NCBI RefSeq assembly: GCF_002706425.1
Contig: NZ_CP017713.1
Location: 1,674,001 to 1,738,000 of the forward strand
Length of the DNA stretch: 64,000 nucleotides
Reading direction: 5' to 3'
DNA from: Loigolactobacillus coryniformis subsp. coryniformis KCTC 3167 = DSM 20001
GTDB taxonomy: Bacteria; Bacillota; Bacilli; Lactobacillales; Lactobacillaceae
Part shown: positions 1-12,882 of the stretch, in pieces
How positions within the stretch are numbered: the first letter of the stretch is position 1
Layout: every line of letters starts with the position of its first letter
The notes under the pieces: generated by a model
What the model saw: only the letters and a program-made list of their open reading frames with translations
Database searches by the model: none
What the model was told of the DNA's origin: nothing
Position numbers and translations under genes: made by a program

Positions 1-933
1 ATATGGGATATGTTAGCTACCAAAGGTAGTCAACAAACGTACATCCGTACAGTCAGGGCCTTAATTCTAAAAGAGTTAAGTGAATCAAGATATCTAACTG
101 CAGAATTATTAGCAACTCGTATTAATAATAATCGTATTAATAGCAAGAGAGTTTTAAACGGTGAGTTAGTAACTGCTGATGAAATTATTGATCACATTAC
201 TGGTCTCAATGGCATTGGTTTAGAAATCACAAGTAGCCATCGTGGTTTTATACTTAAAGATAAAATCAGTGATTTTGAAATTCCAGTTTTGGCAACTGAC
301 TTGCCACATAAGGACAATGTAATAAAGCAACAAGACGAGTTACGGCCAATGCTCAAACATGTAAATCATAAATATTTACAACTTGTTGAGCTTGCATTCG
401 AATCATCTCGAAATAGTGAATATTCACAGTTTGAAACACTTACTATGGAATTAGTATTAAAATACCTTGACTTTTCAGGTAAGTCATTAGGTGGTGCAAA
501 TAAACCGGATGGCATTGCTTGGGATCCTCTCGGTAACTTTTTAATCTTTGATACTAAGGCCTATAAACATGGATATACCTTATCTAACAATACTGATAGG
601 GTTGCACGTTATATTAACGATGTGCGCGATAAAGATATACAAAGAATATCTCGTTGGTGGCAAAGTATTCCAACATATATTGATGTAAAAAATAAATTAC
701 AATTCGTATATATTTCTGGCAGCTTTACAGGTCACTATTTACGACTTCTAAATGACTTACGATCTCGTACTAGAGCAAAAGGTGGTTTGGTGACTGTCGA
801 AAAATTACTATTAACGACTGAGCGCTACTTAGCCGAAGCTGATTACACTCATAAAGAACTATTTGACGATTGGATGGATGATAATATTGAACATGAAGAG
901 TATTTTTATTCCCTACAGGATGCACTAAAATAG
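1..933 (+). CDS. FokI-like type IIS restriction endonuclease, C-terminal part (cut by window edge)
   Basis: The reading frame is open to base 1, so the ATG at 10 is probably internal and the recognition half lies upstream. From memory of FokI, the resemblance covers its third recognition subdomain (WDMLAT, then YIRTVRALIL) and the whole cleavage domain (LKHVNHKY, SLGGANKPDG, FDTKAYKHGY, YISGSFTGHY). Counting from the ATG at 10, D167, D181 and K183 sit where FokI D450, D467 and K469 form the PD-(D/E)XK catalytic site. FokI-type enzymes bind an asymmetric site and cut outside it after the cleavage domains dimerise; a cognate methyltransferase should be upstream, outside this window. The gene looks more AT-rich than the housekeeping genes, which fits transfer. 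It is followed after 68 bp by the SRA-like gene. Confidence 0.85.
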   Translation: MWDMLATKGSQQTYIRTVRALILKELSESRYLTAELLATRINNNRINSKRVLNGELVTADEIIDHITGLNGIGLEITSSHRGFILKDKISDFEIPVLATDLPHKDNVIKQQDELRPMLKHVNHKYLQLVELAFESSRNSEYSQFETLTMELVLKYLDFSGKSLGGANKPDGIAWDPLGNFLIFDTKAYKHGYTLSNNTDRVARYINDVRDKDIQRISRWWQSIPTYIDVKNKLQFVYISGSFTGHYLRLLNDLRSRTRAKGGLVTVEKLLLTTERYLAEADYTHKELFDDWMDDNIEHEEYFYSLQDALK

Positions 934-1001
934 CACTGGAATTAATAAAAAAGATCATTAATCAAATGCTGAACTTACTTAATATAATCGAGGTCCCCCA
1001 C

Positions 1002-1418
1002 ATGACTAATTTCACCGTCAACCTAACACCTGGCAACACCTATACCAACAAAGAACTGTCTGCCGCTTTCAACGTCAGTAATATGGGCGGTATGCGTTAC
1101 TCAAAAAAAAATAACGCGCTAGTTCTGATCTCCGACCACACCAAAGGTTACGACGACCACCGCGAGCACGATATTCTCTACTATACTGGTATGGGTAAAT
1201 ATGGCGATCAATCGCTGGACTTCGGTCAAAACAAACGACTGCAAAGTGTTTCAATTGCTACTGCCACCAATATTTATCTGTTTGAAGTGTTGAAGAAGAC
1301 GGAATACATTTATCGCGGGCCAGTCACTCTTTGTCAGGAACCCTTTCAAGAACAACAGCTTGATTTTGACGAAAAACCGCGCAAAGTTTGGATTTTCCCG
1401 TTAAAAGTTAATCAGTAA
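1002..1418 (+). CDS. Stand-alone SRA-like (ScoMcrA-type) modified-DNA reader protein
   Basis: About 138 aa. The stretch with YYTGMGKYGDQSL, QNKRL, LFEV, YIYRGPV, EPFQEQQ and the terminal RKVWIFPLKV matches, from memory, the SRA-like domain that precedes an HNH nuclease in ScoMcrA-type proteins. That domain reads modified bases or phosphorothioated DNA. Here no nuclease domain follows, so the protein is only the reader module. The start at 1002 is chosen because a GAGG lies 8 bp upstream; an in-frame ATG at 966 has no good site. It sits 68 bp after the FokI-like gene on the same strand and converges on mcrC across a shared hairpin terminator. Function in defence is inferred from domain and context; it could also be a remnant of a larger enzyme. 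Confidence 0.6.
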   Translation: MTNFTVNLTPGNTYTNKELSAAFNVSNMGGMRYSKKNNALVLISDHTKGYDDHREHDILYYTGMGKYGDQSLDFGQNKRLQSVSIATATNIYLFEVLKKTEYIYRGPVTLCQEPFQEQQLDFDEKPRKVWIFPLKVNQ

Positions 1419-1496: not shown

Positions 1497-2822
1497 CTAA
1501 TTCAGAATCGTCTGCTTAAAAATTGCCTCATTTTGCGTCATGGCCATTTTAAATTCACCATAATCTTCAATATCATAGGGAATTTTTAGCCCACATTTAA
1601 TCAGCAGAATATCAGAACGCGCCACGACATTATCATCATAAGTCGAACCACTATTCAAGAACAGCTTCAAATCGTTAGTCTCGCTACTTTCTGGATACAG
1701 ATAGAACCCCTTCTTAGCATCAAATCTGAACATATAAGCTAGAACTTGCAAGTAGTCTTTATTACCAATATTATTCTGGGGTTTATATTTCGTATCAGCG
1801 ATAACCCGTGACGTCGAATTTTGGCTAATAAAATCGGGATAGATCAAACCAATTTGCCCACCATCATCCTTATTAAATAGTTCTTGGGCACCCTCGCCAC
1901 CTTTATTTCGTGGATGGTGGAACGAATCGCCGATTAACAAATTAACGTATTCTTCCCATAACCAGGCACCATCAAACAAAATACCTTGAACCTGATGAAC
2001 GCCCAAACCGATTTGGTATTTATCATGCTGTAAAATCATAAGACAGAGTTTTTGCAGCATACCATATTCGTGATAATAAGCATGACGCACCGGATTTTTT
2101 TTATTTATAGCAATCACTTTAGTACGCGCATAGAATTCATACTTATTCGTTGCAGCAATAATTGCCCCAACTTCCATTTTAACCGATCGTAACAGCCGTT
2201 GACCATAGGGCTTAGCTTTTATAAATTCAATGGTGTGCCGAATCAATTCAGTTAACTGATTATCATACGCAAATTCCCTTTGATTATAGGCAACTTTACC
2301 TATAAATGGTGTATTCGTTCTAACATGGCGAGCAACGTCGATAACGCCTTTAACATGATTATCATTATATTGGTGTCGTACATAAGTTTTAAAAACACCT
2401 TTACGCATCGCCTTTTTCAAAAAATACGGCAACAAAAGTGCTGACCAATCAAATAAGTGGTACTCCTGACTGGCATTCGTATTTAGATTGACCACATTAG
2501 GCAGAGCAAGCACCTTTTCAAGTAGATACTGAAAAAAATTATCTCGTCTACCAGTTGAAAAGCGTGATTCGATTATTAAATGTTCCTGACCATAACCAAG
2601 GAACCCCATTACATTACAGGTGCAGTAACAATTATTCTTACTTCTTAGCACCATCTGTTCATTAGTGATATCGGCAGCGGATGTAATTGTTTCTGGAAAT
2701 ACGAAGATACCTTCTCGTTCTAGTTGTCCTAATGTTTGATCAGCAATTTTCTTTGTCACTGACTGCACAGTCGTAAAAGTGTCTTTTGCATAGGTCGTAT
2801 TATCTTTAATTCTCAATACCAT
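1497..2822 (-). CDS. mcrC: McrC-like nuclease subunit of a modification-dependent restriction system
   Basis: 441 aa, close to the usual McrC/LlaJI-R2 size. The C-terminal half carries a PD-(D/E)XK signature: P329-D330 followed by D343-T344-K345, just after the conserved W-L-W-E-E-Y-V-N segment (about 288-295). In the family McrC binds and stimulates the McrB GTPase ring and cuts DNA between modified recognition sites. It overlaps the upstream mcrB-like gene by 17 bp, which indicates translational coupling, and ends at a bidirectional terminator. The N-terminal half (about 1-200) has the usual poorly conserved McrC region. LlaJI family membership is possible and cannot be separated from McrBC here. 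Confidence 0.85.
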   Translation of the reverse strand: MVLRIKDNTTYAKDTFTTVQSVTKKIADQTLGQLEREGIFVFPETITSAADITNEQMVLRSKNNCYCTCNVMGFLGYGQEHLIIESRFSTGRRDNFFQYLLEKVLALPNVVNLNTNASQEYHLFDWSALLLPYFLKKAMRKGVFKTYVRHQYNDNHVKGVIDVARHVRTNTPFIGKVAYNQREFAYDNQLTELIRHTIEFIKAKPYGQRLLRSVKMEVGAIIAATNKYEFYARTKVIAINKKNPVRHAYYHEYGMLQKLCLMILQHDKYQIGLGVHQVQGILFDGAWLWEEYVNLLIGDSFHHPRNKGGEGAQELFNKDDGGQIGLIYPDFISQNSTSRVIADTKYKPQNNIGNKDYLQVLAYMFRFDAKKGFYLYPESSETNDLKLFLNSGSTYDDNVVARSDILLIKCGLKIPYDIEDYGEFKMAMTQNEAIFKQTILN

Positions 2823-4809
2823 GATCAGTACTACCTACCTTAGAATGGTCATATGCTTGCGCAAGTCGCACCATGATTTTAGTTTCATCTTGCATTCCAT
2901 GAATATAGTCTTGTAACAGCGGTTCTAAATAGTCAGTCCATAATTGATCAAAGGTCAATGTTTTTAATTTCAAAAAATAAGCGGCCCCAATTTGATAATT
3001 TTCATTAAGTTCCTCAACCATAGCAATCGCATTGTTCAATGCATTCATGCGCTGTTTTGCTTCAGCTGCATTTTCGAGTGAATCCAACATCTCGATTCGT
3101 TCACCTGCTTTGATTTCAATGAAGCGGAAACGACGGCGCATGGCAAAGTCAAACGTATCAACTGAACGGTCAATATCATTCATTGTACCAACAATATAGA
3201 CATTTTCCGGGATAAAGAATTTTTCTTCGTGGTCGTCGTGCAAACTGGCATATTGAGTAGTAACTTCACCAGCAGGACCACGATAACCTGGGTCAATTGA
3301 AAAGAAAAGTTCACCGAAGATTTTAGCAATCTCGCCACGATTGATTTCATCGATGATAAAGATATAGGGTTTTAATTTTTCCGGTTGTACTGTCGGTTTA
3401 GCCAACGATGTTTGGGTTGCTTTAATTGCCTTAAAAATAGCCAGATCATAAGAATAGCTTTGCGTACCATTTAATTTTCCAAAGAATCCGGTAACGTCTG
3501 TAACCTGTTTAAATTTTCGCCCAGATGTCAGCATTTGCTTGATAGTATCGACACTTAAACTAAGCTTATCAGCTATTGCATTTTCTGGTATGGAAACATT
3601 GATATGATTTTCATCAACATCAGTAATGTAAAATTTCGTACCGCGAGTCGTGGTTAATTCATCGACGCCTAATTCAATATTGGCAAAATAATCGGTTATC
3701 ATTTCTTGCACGGAGACTTCTTTTTCGATCGCTGACTTCGATTTTTTTGAATTAATAAGGTTCTTTTGCGCGCGGCCAACAAATTTTTTAAAAATACCAT
3801 CTTGCAATTCAAAACCCATTGAGCCATCCGCATTGGTTCTTGGACGTAAGCCTTCGACAAAATCGGTGTAATCATAACTCGGGTGGAACTGAACGAATTC
3901 AATTTGCTGTTTTTGTTCTGCAGTTAATTGTGTGTAATCAGTAAACTGACCTGCACTGATGATATCCGTTGCAATTTCTTTAGCCAGATAAGATTTACCC
4001 GTTCCTGGGGCACCGTGAAAGATAATGTTCTTGCTTGTTAATAAAGCTGATGTGTACTTATTTTTAAAATCGGTTTTAGCCTTCAAATTCACGACCTCCT
4101 TTTCTTGCGCATTAACATCTAGACTCGCATTCCGATACCACCATAGTAATGAGCTAAGCAAGGCGCCATCAAGTTGCGGATACTTTTCCGAAATTAAGCG
4201 CGTCAGCTCATAATTTTGTTTATAAACGCCGCCTTGCGCTTCAAGCGAGAGCATGGGTCCCCAAACCGTTTTCTGATCTTTATTCAGGTTAATACCCGAA
4301 AAAACCGGCGTCGCTGAATAAGCACACAATAGCTTAGTTACCATTGCCGAACGGCCAAAGAAAGAATTAGTTGATTGCCTGCTCTGGAAAACCGGATCAG
4401 AAAACTCAGCATTAATTCCCTTAGTGACGATTGCAACTAGATCTGCCTTTAATCGAGAAAACTGCTGGTTGAGCTCATTTTCAGCAATTACTTGGTTGTT
4501 CTGATCACAATAGGCGTGATACTTTTTACTCCAGTAAATTCCAAATTTGCCGGCCGTACCACCGCGAATTCCTAGATACAGATCACGATATTTGCCACTC
4601 TCAATTTCATAACAAAAGGACTTATTTTGTGGGCCTTTACCAGTAACATACTCATCCAATGCCAATGATTTTAAGCGTTCCAGCGGCCAATCGATTAAGA
4701 ATTTTGCGCCAAGCCGCTTATTTTTCTCCTTATCCTGCTCTGCTTGAGCGAGTAGCTCCTTTTGATTTTGTTCATACCATTGTGTAAATTGTGTTAAGTT
4801 GGCACCCAT
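2806..4809 (-). CDS. mcrB: McrB-like AAA+ GTPase subunit
   Basis: 667 aa. A unique N-terminal region (about 1-235) is followed by a McrB-type AAA+ motor: Walker A GAPGTGKS at 266-273, Walker B with IIDEIN at about 485-490, the McrB-specific TMNDIDRS at 542-549 and arginines RRR at 558-560. McrB forms a hexamer that hydrolyses GTP and translocates DNA with McrC; the N-terminal part normally decides which modified base or sequence is bound. Here it has residues such as YLGIRGGTAGKFGIYW (about 78-93), which I do not recognise as a known reader fold, so the target is open. The start is supported by AGGGGTG upstream of the ATG at 4809. It is the first gene of the mcrBC pair. Confidence 0.87.
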   Translation of the reverse strand: MGANLTQFTQWYEQNQKELLAQAEQDKEKNKRLGAKFLIDWPLERLKSLALDEYVTGKGPQNKSFCYEIESGKYRDLYLGIRGGTAGKFGIYWSKKYHAYCDQNNQVIAENELNQQFSRLKADLVAIVTKGINAEFSDPVFQSRQSTNSFFGRSAMVTKLLCAYSATPVFSGINLNKDQKTVWGPMLSLEAQGGVYKQNYELTRLISEKYPQLDGALLSSLLWWYRNASLDVNAQEKEVVNLKAKTDFKNKYTSALLTSKNIIFHGAPGTGKSYLAKEIATDIISAGQFTDYTQLTAEQKQQIEFVQFHPSYDYTDFVEGLRPRTNADGSMGFELQDGIFKKFVGRAQKNLINSKKSKSAIEKEVSVQEMITDYFANIELGVDELTTTRGTKFYITDVDENHINVSIPENAIADKLSLSVDTIKQMLTSGRKFKQVTDVTGFFGKLNGTQSYSYDLAIFKAIKATQTSLAKPTVQPEKLKPYIFIIDEINRGEIAKIFGELFFSIDPGYRGPAGEVTTQYASLHDDHEEKFFIPENVYIVGTMNDIDRSVDTFDFAMRRRFRFIEIKAGERIEMLDSLENAAEAKQRMNALNNAIAMVEELNENYQIGAAYFLKLKTLTFDQLWTDYLEPLLQDYIHGMQDETKIMVRLAQAYDHSKVGSTDHGIEN

Positions 4810-11078: not shown

Positions 11079-11086
11079 CTGACCAA
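11079..11086. repeat. Target site duplication, left copy (CTGACCAA)
   Basis: 8-bp direct repeat bordering the left end of the insertion sequence; identical to 12883-12890. Confidence 0.85.
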
Positions 11087-12882
11087 GGTACTGTCAAACG
11101 TACCCGATTTTGTCTAGTTTTAATTATTGTTTCTAATGGTTTTGTATTATCTAAGTGAAATTAAAAAACACCCGGACCAATTCTTCTGTTATCCTTGGTG
11201 TGCAACCAACAAGAATTCCAAGAAAGAAGGAGATCCGAGTGCTTACACCATTATTAACTTATTTAGTCCAAATAATCAAGTTCCAACGTGCATTGATCAT
11301 CTTTTTGTTGGCCCAGCTGATTGATATTTTTGACCATTCGCGCTTGCCCAGCACCGATAAACCAACCTATAAACGCTTTAATCAATTTCAAGTTGACGAT
11401 AAATTACCAATTTTAGCAGCCGATATTGGTCCAGAATCACTTAATTATGAGCAACTGATCATTGACTACATGACCAAAACCGGCAAAGATCTAAAACCAA
11501 TTCGGCGCCGACAAGGCACCGTGATCACGTTCCAGAACCAACGTTGCCCACGCTGTAATGCCCCAAGCGACTATCTATACGCTAATAACGGTAAAGGTAA
11601 TCAGCTTAAGTGTAAGATCTGCGCTTTTAGCTTCCAAAATGGTGATGCGCAGAAGAAGAAAGCGGTGGTACTTCGTTGCCCATACTGCCAACATCGATTG
11701 GAAGCTCATCACCACCGTAGTAACTTCGATGTGTTACGTTGTCCTAATGACCAATGTTCATTTCGTTTAAAACAAATCAAGCAGTTATCCGTAGCTGAAG
11801 CCAAACAATTCAAGGAACAGCCATCTAGCTTCAAAGTACGCTACACTTTCCGTAACTTTAAATTCGATCTCAAAGGCTTAGCGGCTAGTTCGCCAGTTCA
11901 AGCCAAGGTCGATTTGAGTAAGATCCAAGCCAGCCCTGAGGTTTTAGGGCTTGCCCTGACCTATCACATTAACTATGGCCTGTCGGCCCGTCGTACCGCA
12001 GCCATCATGTACGACGTTCACGGCGTTAAGATCTCCCACCAAACCATTCACAACTACGAAGAGGCGGTAGCGACCGTTATTCGACCATTCTGGGCTAACT
12101 ATCCTTACGAACTTTCCAACCAATTAGTTGGTGATGAGACTTACGTCAAGGTCAAAGGTAAGTGGAACTATATCTTTTACTTTTACGACGCGGTTAAAAA
12201 GCTAATTCTAGCCGACTATATAACGCCCAACCGCACAACTGAATCAGCGGTCGTTGCCATCAATCAAGTCCTACAGAAGATGTCCGAACGTCCAGCCGAC
12301 CTACAGTTCGTAGTCGACGCCAATCCCATTTATCAAGTAGCACAACTTTATTTTGCTCAACAAGGGATCAATTTTAAAATCAAGCAAGTAGTAGGGTTGA
12401 CCAACAAAGATCCAATCAGTAAAGAGTATCGTTTCTTGAAACAAACAATTGAGCGTTTAAACCGTAGTTTTAAGGGCAATTATCGGTCGGCCACTGGTTT
12501 TAACTCACCAACCGGTTCAGCCAGTTATACCGCCTTATATTCAGCGGCTTATAACTTTTTACGCCCGCACGAAGCGCTAGATTATAAGGTGCCGGTACAC
12601 CTACCAGAGCTGGACAATAAACCGCGCATGTACGATAAATGGTTGGCCTTGATTGATCTAGCACAAAGCCAATTACCAACTGCATAAGCAAGCATTAGTT
12701 TAGGACTAGAATCAAACTTGTCTAAGCTGACTTTGTGTTGCCTCGAAACGGGCGATTGGCCGGATTAATACTGTGCGCGTACAGAACTAACCAACTAGAC
12801 CACTCAATCCTTAAGTCGATTTCTACAGTTGCATCTACACCACCTTCTGAACCACGGTTTTCATAGAACTTTTGACGTTACC
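11087..12882 (+). mobile_element. Insertion sequence, IS6-like ends, 1796 bp
   Basis: Imperfect terminal inverted repeats: GGTACTGTCAAACGT at 11087 and, read inward from 12882, GGTAACGTCAAAAGT. It is flanked by identical 8-bp duplications CTGACCAA, so both ends are certain and the insertion is recent. The element holds one transposase gene, a 152-bp left leader and about 195 non-coding bp at the right end. End sequence and 8-bp duplication fit the IS6 family, but the element is about twice the usual size. Confidence 0.85.
11239..12687 (+). CDS. DDE transposase with N-terminal zinc-ribbon region
   Basis: 482 aa from a GTG at 11239 with AAGGAG six bases upstream; the ATG at 11155 lies in the IS leader. 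The N-terminal half has paired cysteines (CPRCNAPSDYL, LKCKIC; then CPYCQHRL, RCPNDQC) that would bind zinc. The C-terminal catalytic core has D in VGDETYVKVKG, D in FVVDANPIY and E in KQTIERLNRSFKG, a DDE triad. The core resembles IS6/IS26-type enzymes but with a long N-terminal extension. The gene appears intact. It could be classed in a neighbouring DDE family; a database search would decide. Confidence 0.85.
   Translation: MLTPLLTYLVQIIKFQRALIIFLLAQLIDIFDHSRLPSTDKPTYKRFNQFQVDDKLPILAADIGPESLNYEQLIIDYMTKTGKDLKPIRRRQGTVITFQNQRCPRCNAPSDYLYANNGKGNQLKCKICAFSFQNGDAQKKKAVVLRCPYCQHRLEAHHHRSNFDVLRCPNDQCSFRLKQIKQLSVAEAKQFKEQPSSFKVRYTFRNFKFDLKGLAASSPVQAKVDLSKIQASPEVLGLALTYHINYGLSARRTAAIMYDVHGVKISHQTIHNYEEAVATVIRPFWANYPYELSNQLVGDETYVKVKGKWNYIFYFYDAVKKLILADYITPNRTTESAVVAINQVLQKMSERPADLQFVVDANPIYQVAQLYFAQQGINFKIKQVVGLTNKDPISKEYRFLKQTIERLNRSFKGNYRSATGFNSPTGSASYTALYSAAYNFLRPHEALDYKVPVHLPELDNKPRMYDKWLALIDLAQSQLPTA

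Follow-up and report, generated by a model that had tools for sequence, protein, structure and literature searches.

Why should one bacterial locus carry two complete FokI-family endonucleases beside a single methylase, and how could the two enzymes operate side by side? The question arises at the left edge of a 64,000-nucleotide stretch of the Loigolactobacillus coryniformis subsp. coryniformis KCTC 3167 = DSM 20001 chromosome (hereafter ‘the window’; C1:1674001-1738000 of a 2.95 Mb single-contig genome, where C1 is contig NZ_CP017713.1 and window base 1 is C1:1674001), which opens inside an endonuclease gene that we call R2. The 5ʹ half of R2, its methylase gene (M) and a second endonuclease gene (R1) sit upstream, in 10 kb of additional DNA that we examined. 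The main interest of the region is therefore found outside the window: two FokI-type enzymes with opposite dimer contacts reside beside one methylase, and a tandem FokI site that recurs across the family stands before the methylase gene. Zinc-finger nucleases (ZFNs) and transcription activator-like effector nucleases (TALENs) owe their cutting activity to the nuclease domain of FokI, whose dimer contact has been re-engineered against unwanted pairing. A natural enzyme with a reversed contact, located beside a canonical one, is a candidate orthogonal domain and offers a test of the specificity of this contact.

Two FokI-family endonucleases around one methylase gene

Window positions 1-933 form an open frame that runs from the first base to a TAG codon. 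A preliminary description of this DNA had read the frame as part of a FokI relative from a lactic acid bacterium, with its catalytic triad intact and its recognition half upstream, and each of these points was borne out. Extension of the contig takes the frame to a start at window position -980, which yields a plus-strand gene (C1:1673020-1674933, its 3ʹ part being window 1..933) for a protein of 637 amino acids with no internal stop, and the nearest relatives belong to Lactobacillaceae. R2 matches all four FokI models of Pfam: the cleavage domain (E 6.4e-61), domain 2 (E 9.6e-39), D1 (E 1.6e-6) and D3 (E 8.3e-5), the D3 match scoring 22.8 bits, under the curated cut-off of 29.2, with the window part still fitting residues 292-579 of 2fok. 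The cleavage-domain match and the unbroken extension dispose of the two objections that the description had raised against itself, namely that no such match might exist or that only a gene fragment might be present.

Comparisons with known structures agree with this assignment. A phmmer search against the Protein Data Bank (PDB) returns FokI (2fok and 1fok, E 2.9e-57 and 3.5e-57), and the window-encoded part of R2, modelled with AlphaFold2 (mean pLDDT 94.3), superimposes on 2fok_A with Z 25.6 and 2.0 Å over 278 residues (Foldseek E 1.3e-18). Catalytic residues D450, D467 and K469 of FokI correspond to D497, D511 and K513 of R2, or D170, D184 and K186 in window numbering (the earlier 167, 181 and 183 count from an ATG at base 10). 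R2, which is 30% identical to the enzyme of Planomicrobium okeanokoites (locus L075), is thus an intact FokI-family type IIS endonuclease by its domain and catalytic-residue content.

A two-domain adenine methyltransferase, which had been proposed as a neighbour worth seeking, indeed lies immediately before R2. M (C1:1670984-1672948, plus strand, 654 amino acids) ends 71 bp before the R2 start on the same strand and carries two D12-class methylase stretches in one chain according to Pfam. One PADLOC type II methylase model likewise aligns along the whole of M, which is 48% identical to the methylase of L075. M is therefore a fused, two-domain adenine methylase of the M.FokI type.

On the opposite strand of the methylase lies R1 (C1:1668967-1670784, minus strand), whose length of 605 amino acids is counted from the ATG of MGAHEFGWIQNP. 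Its unbroken frame matches the D1, D2, D3 and cleavage models as well as FokI in PDB, and equivalents of D450, D467 and K469 are kept in R1 as they are in R2. R1 is, by the same measures of domain content and catalytic residues, a FokI-family type IIS endonuclease, 33% identical to the L075 enzyme. The two endonucleases are only distantly similar to each other (27% identity over 560 aligned columns), and they fall into different groups of the endonuclease tree, R1 in clade A1 and R2 in clade B1.

The most striking difference between them concerns the dimer contact, in which we take FokI residue 483 of one chain to stand opposite residue 487 of the partner chain. In R2 the corresponding residues are the canonical pair, D526 and R530 (D199 and R203 in window numbering), which lie within helix 198-210 of the model and do not vary across 36 aligned rows that include neither R1 nor its Weissella relative L009. 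Across a larger alignment of 61 rows, numbered according to the L075 enzyme, D/R is present at 483/487 in 58, the reversed arrangement R/D is found in R1 and L009, and the remaining row (L067) has no residue there. The reversed pair of R1 is R524/D528, and the alignment with FokI is ungapped around the swap, with E484, M485 and Y488 conserved. Because R1 carries both changes, an R1-R1 contact would keep opposite charges, whereas an R1-R2 contact would not. In engineered FokI domains, R487D and D483R are each described as blocking self-pairing while permitting cross-pairing, so that the combination produces obligate heterodimers (PMC3789796). Judged from this charge pattern, R1 and R2 should each pair with themselves and repel each other.

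Tandem GGATG sites before the methylase gene

The sequence directly before M is GGATGTAATAGGATG, in which two copies of the FokI site occur as GGATG-N5-GGATG (C1:1670962-1670976, plus strand). The first G is 22 bp upstream of the start codon, and an extended -10-like sequence, TGCTATACT, precedes the pair at C1:1670943-1670951. A generic promoter scan, which gave 9 sites compared with 13.4 in shuffled sequences and so showed a deficit, did not include this -10-like sequence among its hits.

The same arrangement was found before the methylase gene in most relatives. Among 80 loci with a located M start, 67 carry GGATG-N5-GGATG with the first G 20-34 bp before that start, and all 67 occurrences of the pattern in these loci (2,349,268 strand-bases) are situated before M. 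L075 is among the holders, as are loci from Treponema, Haemophilus, Pelistega, clostridia and lactobacilli. To place the M starts we relied on a sequence motif rather than on translation evidence (L067 and L093 have no located start), and both this count and the trees described below leave out frames with at most 450 endonuclease positions, at most 550 methylase positions or at most 400 bits, a filter that removes the unfused methylases of L014. L217, in which R is a fragment and M lacks the 5ʹ end, is likewise uncounted. Near-copies such as L017/L018, L027/L028, L055/L056, L036/L039, L011/L024 and L074/L076 were kept.

Presence of the tandem follows presence of an endonuclease. The pair occurs in 61 of 62 loci with a trace of R and in 6 of 18 without one (Fisher p 3.7e-9, for rows that are not independent). 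Among methylase frames of a viral and phage set that lack R and have a located start, 14 of 15 have no tandem, L141 being the exception. Five loci that were fetched after the rule had been noticed and that contain both R and the 5ʹ end of M (L131, L132, L133, L134 and L216) all carry it; at the DNA level they share 66-79% identity with their best matches in the earlier set, and L131 and L132 are near-identical to each other by matching scores and upstream sequence. At the density of the pattern in our own chromosome, where it appears seven times and where only the copy before M has a T after the first GGATG, about three pairs would be expected by chance in the 80 loci. From 61 distinct sequences comes the consensus AAGGATGTnnnnGGATGTGA; a weak TATAAT-like block lies approximately 9-14 bp before the first G.

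Spacing also appears to be strict, since in loci without the 10-bp pair a search over 150 bp turned up no GGATG pair at any other spacing. Endonuclease genes show no comparable enrichment of GGATG at their starts (1.49 versus 1.16 per kb, 58 R genes). For this reason a GGATG...CATCC hairpin in the first codons of R1 was taken to be a codon coincidence.

Separately, the FokI-type methylase halves are unfused in L141 and L216, and the tandem stands before the first half in each; L216 has an endonuclease, and none was found in the L141 locus.

In other restriction-modification systems, methylases are known to control their own genes through cognate sites at the promoter (PMC3874152). A pair of FokI sites at the methylase promoter in 61 of the 62 loci with an R trace, together with a reading of GGATG by our own M that is predicted below, suggests that M probably controls its own gene through the tandem. 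Both the near-universal presence of the tandem in the FokI family and its 10-bp spacing look new: a literature search at the level of titles and abstracts, which did not take in the papers that first described the FokI and StsI genes, returned no earlier mention of the tandem sites or of natural reversed interfaces. If the rule holds, the methylase promoter would reveal the recognition sequence of a FokI-type system, and self-control by the methylase could be tested directly.

The tandem also bears on specificity. It precedes M in loci with endonucleases of clades A1, A2, B1 and B2 and with enzymes near FokI. Since what stands there is the FokI site in every one of these clades, M most likely reads GGATG throughout. 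If M marks GGATG, any endonuclease present beside it must be unable to cut sites so marked. All clades therefore probably share this specificity, and R1 and R2 probably both recognise GGATG despite rather different D1 domains. When four A-associated methylases were compared with five B-associated ones from Lactobacillaceae (near-copies left out; the B locus L012 has a split R), no column was fixed differently between the two groups. The suggestion that a new FokI relative might have a new recognition site thus found no support in the promoter or in the methylase. Methylome studies point in the same direction: a FokI-like M1-M2-R system of Prevotella intermedia is described as accompanying N6-methyladenine (m6A) in GGATG/CATCC (PMC5608340), and the same modified motif is reported for Streptococcus equi (PMC8754150).

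Proposed endonuclease exchange and competing explanations

The endonuclease and methylase trees disagree. A quick tree of endonucleases places R2 with the enzymes of L112, L019 (Lacticaseibacillus sharpeae) and L020 (Lacticaseibacillus porcinae), these four B1 members making up one starred clade, and places R1 with Weissella L009 at a starred node. In the methylase tree, our own M joins L112 (support 88/82, not starred) and then L009, whereas the methylases of L019 and L020 group with A2 loci. A single clade of B1 methylases is rejected both without our own M (three sequences, p-AU 0.019) and with it (p-AU 0.014), where the groups were defined from the R tree and the test was run after the quick M tree had been seen. 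Moreover, upstream of its M, L019 retains a C-terminal stretch of the A2 type, about 100 codons long, with M and then the R2-type gene after it, and this remnant is 55% identical over 102 residues to a Lapidilactobacillus endonuclease. The tree conflict and the remnant lead us to infer that a methylase stays in place while its endonucleases are exchanged, and that our own locus may represent a stage at which both are present.

Two intact FokI-type endonucleases were found in our own genome only among the loci examined, and the loci fetched later have at most one R or an R fragment each. L. sharpeae has one intact R plus the remnant, and R is in pieces in L012, L043, L058, L067, L071 and L084. 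Matching proteins occur in 13 of 72,556 plasmid records, at one place each, and in 4 of 100 sampled genomes of relatives, 9 of 397 from the family, 7 of 395 from the order (two near threshold), 4 of 398 from the class and 3 of 398 from the phylum; these samples overlap, each includes our own genome, and ours alone gives two matches. The remark that FokI and StsI homologues are few therefore holds per genome, as the class sample shows, yet 69 loci of the set used for the trees have an R trace; from 275 relatives, the scan that took the methylase as its anchor retained the best 80. Among viral contigs, single queries with R1 or R2 found no relatives, and a query with M found four contigs with an R.

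Several side observations emerged from this survey. FokI-type methylases in L074 (9987-13485) and L066 (9955-11388) lie beside a different endonuclease (PADLOC PDLC03445), with a GmrSD protein also present in L074; L074 and L076, whose frames are at the same places, carry the tandem, and L066 does not. The Staphylococcus plasmid L013 and seven more Staphylococcus plasmid records hold only the N-terminal half of a FokI-like gene, which in L013 terminates beside an IS257 transposase. A contig labelled as a Coriobacteriaceae metagenome-assembled genome (L017) has an R that is 96% identical to that of Lapidilactobacillus bayanensis, which indicates recent transfer or misbinning.

We propose that R1, M and R2 constitute a type IIS locus in which M would guard GGATG/CATCC on both strands, while R1 and R2, acquired separately, would cut unmethylated GGATG in incoming DNA. 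Each endonuclease is expected to bind its site via the recognition domains, to free its C-terminal nuclease domain and to cleave after pairing with a second copy of the same enzyme, in keeping with the site, the cut positions 9/13 bases downstream and the dimer cleavage described for FokI (PMC4081073, PMC10201449). An R1-R2 contact would oppose R to R and D to D, so the enzymes would form separate homodimers. Any M in surplus over its sites might bind the tandem at the transcript start and reduce its own synthesis, and the two M domains could occupy the two GGATG copies on one helix face. Taken jointly, the type IIS locus, the insulated homodimers, the replacement stage and the self-limitation of M form an account that we consider likely, with appreciable room for doubt. 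A bolder version, in which the locus holds a natural, mutually exclusive FokI pair acting on one site and methylases throughout the family sense their supply by gripping, one per domain, two GGATG copies set exactly one helical turn apart where their own transcript starts, is put forward tentatively and at somewhat less than even chances.

A number of observations weigh against parts of this proposal. R1 and L009 depart from FokI at positions 486, 490, 499, 537 and 538 as well (all variable in the family), so the residues at 483 and 487 may not decide pairing. The L009 plasmid has the swap even though it carries a single R, and the swap thus did not arise to insulate the R1/R2 pair. Beyond the 61 rows, 14 additional ones comprise ten with D/R (L119 and L126 coming from genomes already counted), the fragment L121, the distant homologue L129 with R/E, and the more distant L122 and L128 with N/N. 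The node that joins R1 to L009 is flagged as a meeting of long branches, yet the two proteins are 44% identical and have the swap in common. The bare tandem pattern is not unique, as six other copies exist in our own chromosome; it is absent from two R-bearing loci, L080 and L014 (the latter with unfused methylases and no GGATG within 300 bp), and it is present in six loci without a FokI-type R. As for specificity, the A/B split of the methylases shows a weak trend, with 18 disjoint columns against a mean of 12.1, a value reached by 14 of 126 splits, and FokI-type half methylases may be silent or have other targets: in Campylobacter coli one is assigned GAATTC and another, predicted to read GGATG, showed no motif (PMC4687069). 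Finally, the loci extend at most some 8-10 kb per side, and a second R farther away would fall beyond that range. Quite apart from these points, L129 has T at the first catalytic position in addition to its reversed charges.

The most serious competitor holds that one endonuclease is merely a leftover: replacement is underway, either R1 or R2 is due to decay, and nothing is gained from having both. The rarity of two intact enzymes, the decayed tail of a third type in L. sharpeae, the six further loci with R in pieces and a GC content of 0.365 in R1 against 0.324 in M and 0.338 in R2, as if R1 had arrived separately, all fit this idea, and we give it a substantial chance that stays below one half, because R1 and R2 are both full length with every catalytic residue in place. 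R1 and R2 might instead be subunits of one heterodimeric enzyme, each cutting one strand, as in the type IIT enzymes BbvCI, BtsI, BsrDI and BspD6I, which have two subunits with different catalytic sites (PMC4081073). A shared methylase would suit such an enzyme, but the relative of R1 in L009 and those of R2 in L112, L019 and L020 are each the sole intact R beside a methylase; each protein here also has its own recognition domains, and like charges would face each other across the R1-R2 contact. We regard the heterodimer as very improbable.

Two other explanations, both of which we judge unlikely, concern the GGATG sites. The first assumes that R1 and R2 have different sites, with M protecting both or another chromosomal methylase protecting one. 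The D1 domains are indeed poorly conserved (22 identities at 133 aligned positions), and at position 13 of FokI, a base-contacting residue, R1 has N where R2 has D. Nevertheless, the tandem precedes M in single-R loci of both clades, no M column separates the two groups, and D at position 13 occurs in tandem-bearing loci of other clades, for which reason the position-13 difference was dropped as a sign of a different site. Under the remaining explanation, the tandem would be a conserved element of ribosome binding or of promoters in general, with no role in own-site control, and in some loci (e.g. L008 and L009) the second GGATG does sit at the Shine-Dalgarno position. This fits poorly with the clostridial loci L046, L053 and L068, in which a separate GGAGG-type sequence follows the tandem, and with the strict spacing, the R-less viral and phage methylase frames and the unenriched R starts noted above. 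We accordingly retain the proposal of two insulated homodimers around a self-limiting methylase.

Genomic setting and relation to known systems

A defence setting had been suggested for the gene, and a second defence-type module does adjoin it. McrC-like (window 1497-2822) and McrB-like (window 2806-4809) genes lie on the minus strand, opposite to R2, with Pfam matches to McrBC (E 2.2e-46) and AAA_5 (E 2.2e-11). Inclusion of this pair in the R1-M-R2 system was rejected for now, and it is treated as a separate module, because the genus-conserved protein P0004 intervenes and because none of the other R/M loci compared contained relatives of either protein. The P0004 protein (window 966-1418) is small and matches SAD/SRA weakly, under the Pfam cut-off (E 4.9e-4); it is 93.6% identical over 140 residues to a protein of the same-genus genome G003, while G006 matches in pieces only, and its surroundings differ between genomes. 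The G003 stretch that matches both flanks holds P0004 without R1, M, R2, McrC or McrB, which marks the R1-M-R2 region as variable. R1, M and R2 are all low in GC, the values being 0.37 for McrC, 0.39 for McrB and 0.43-0.50 for five other genes measured.

Mobile DNA is present farther into the window, where positions 11086-12882 share 99.9% identity with a brewery plasmid of Pediococcus damnosus on which the sequence is annotated as a transposase, and frame 11155-12687 spans most of this segment. Of 13 plasmid records that match part of the window, seven are from Loigolactobacillus, mostly via transposase sequence. No Rfam matches were found in L002:4800-11200.

The system reported here is most readily understood by comparison with its closest counterparts. 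The FokI system of P. okeanokoites (1fok, 2fok) has the same four-domain order, catalytic triad and fused two-domain methylase, places M before R on one strand as seen for R2, and carries the tandem before M in L075; however, it has one endonuclease rather than two, and its charges at 483/487 are the reverse of those in R1. Plasmid p1 of Weissella confusa (NZ_CP049098, L009) encodes the endonuclease nearest to R1 and a methylase 64% identical to our own M, but its single R is codirectional with M, unlike the R1/M/R2 arrangement. The loci of L. sharpeae, L. porcinae and L112 combine endonucleases 56-58% identical to R2 with a FokI-type M and the tandem, and each has one intact endonuclease instead of two, with the A2-type C-terminal remnant as an addition in L. 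sharpeae. The tree conflict, the two-enzyme stage and this decayed remnant together suggest that endonucleases change on a kept methylase.

Systems known from other descriptions extend the comparison. The P. intermedia system is likened to ours by its description, with methylome-supported GGATG/CATCC methylases, although it has two separate methylases and one R (PMC5608340). LlaKI of Lactococcus lactis, a 50 kDa protein, is reported as a FokI isoschizomer from a lactic acid bacterium (PMC4392985). Type IIT enzymes such as BbvCI, BtsI, BsrDI and BspD6I likewise place two endonuclease polypeptides under one modification system, but there the two polypeptides make up one enzyme, whereas R1 and R2 are each complete and their interface charges would clash. 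Charge at the same two residues is described as controlling pairing in FokI variants made for ZFNs and TALENs (R487D, ‘DD’, and D483R, ‘RR’; PMC3789796). In contrast to these engineered variants, R1 is natural and unites both changes in one protein, which produces a reversed pair that is predicted to be compatible with itself. Pairs of separate FokI homodimers have reportedly been engineered, and the R1/R2 locus may hold their natural counterpart.
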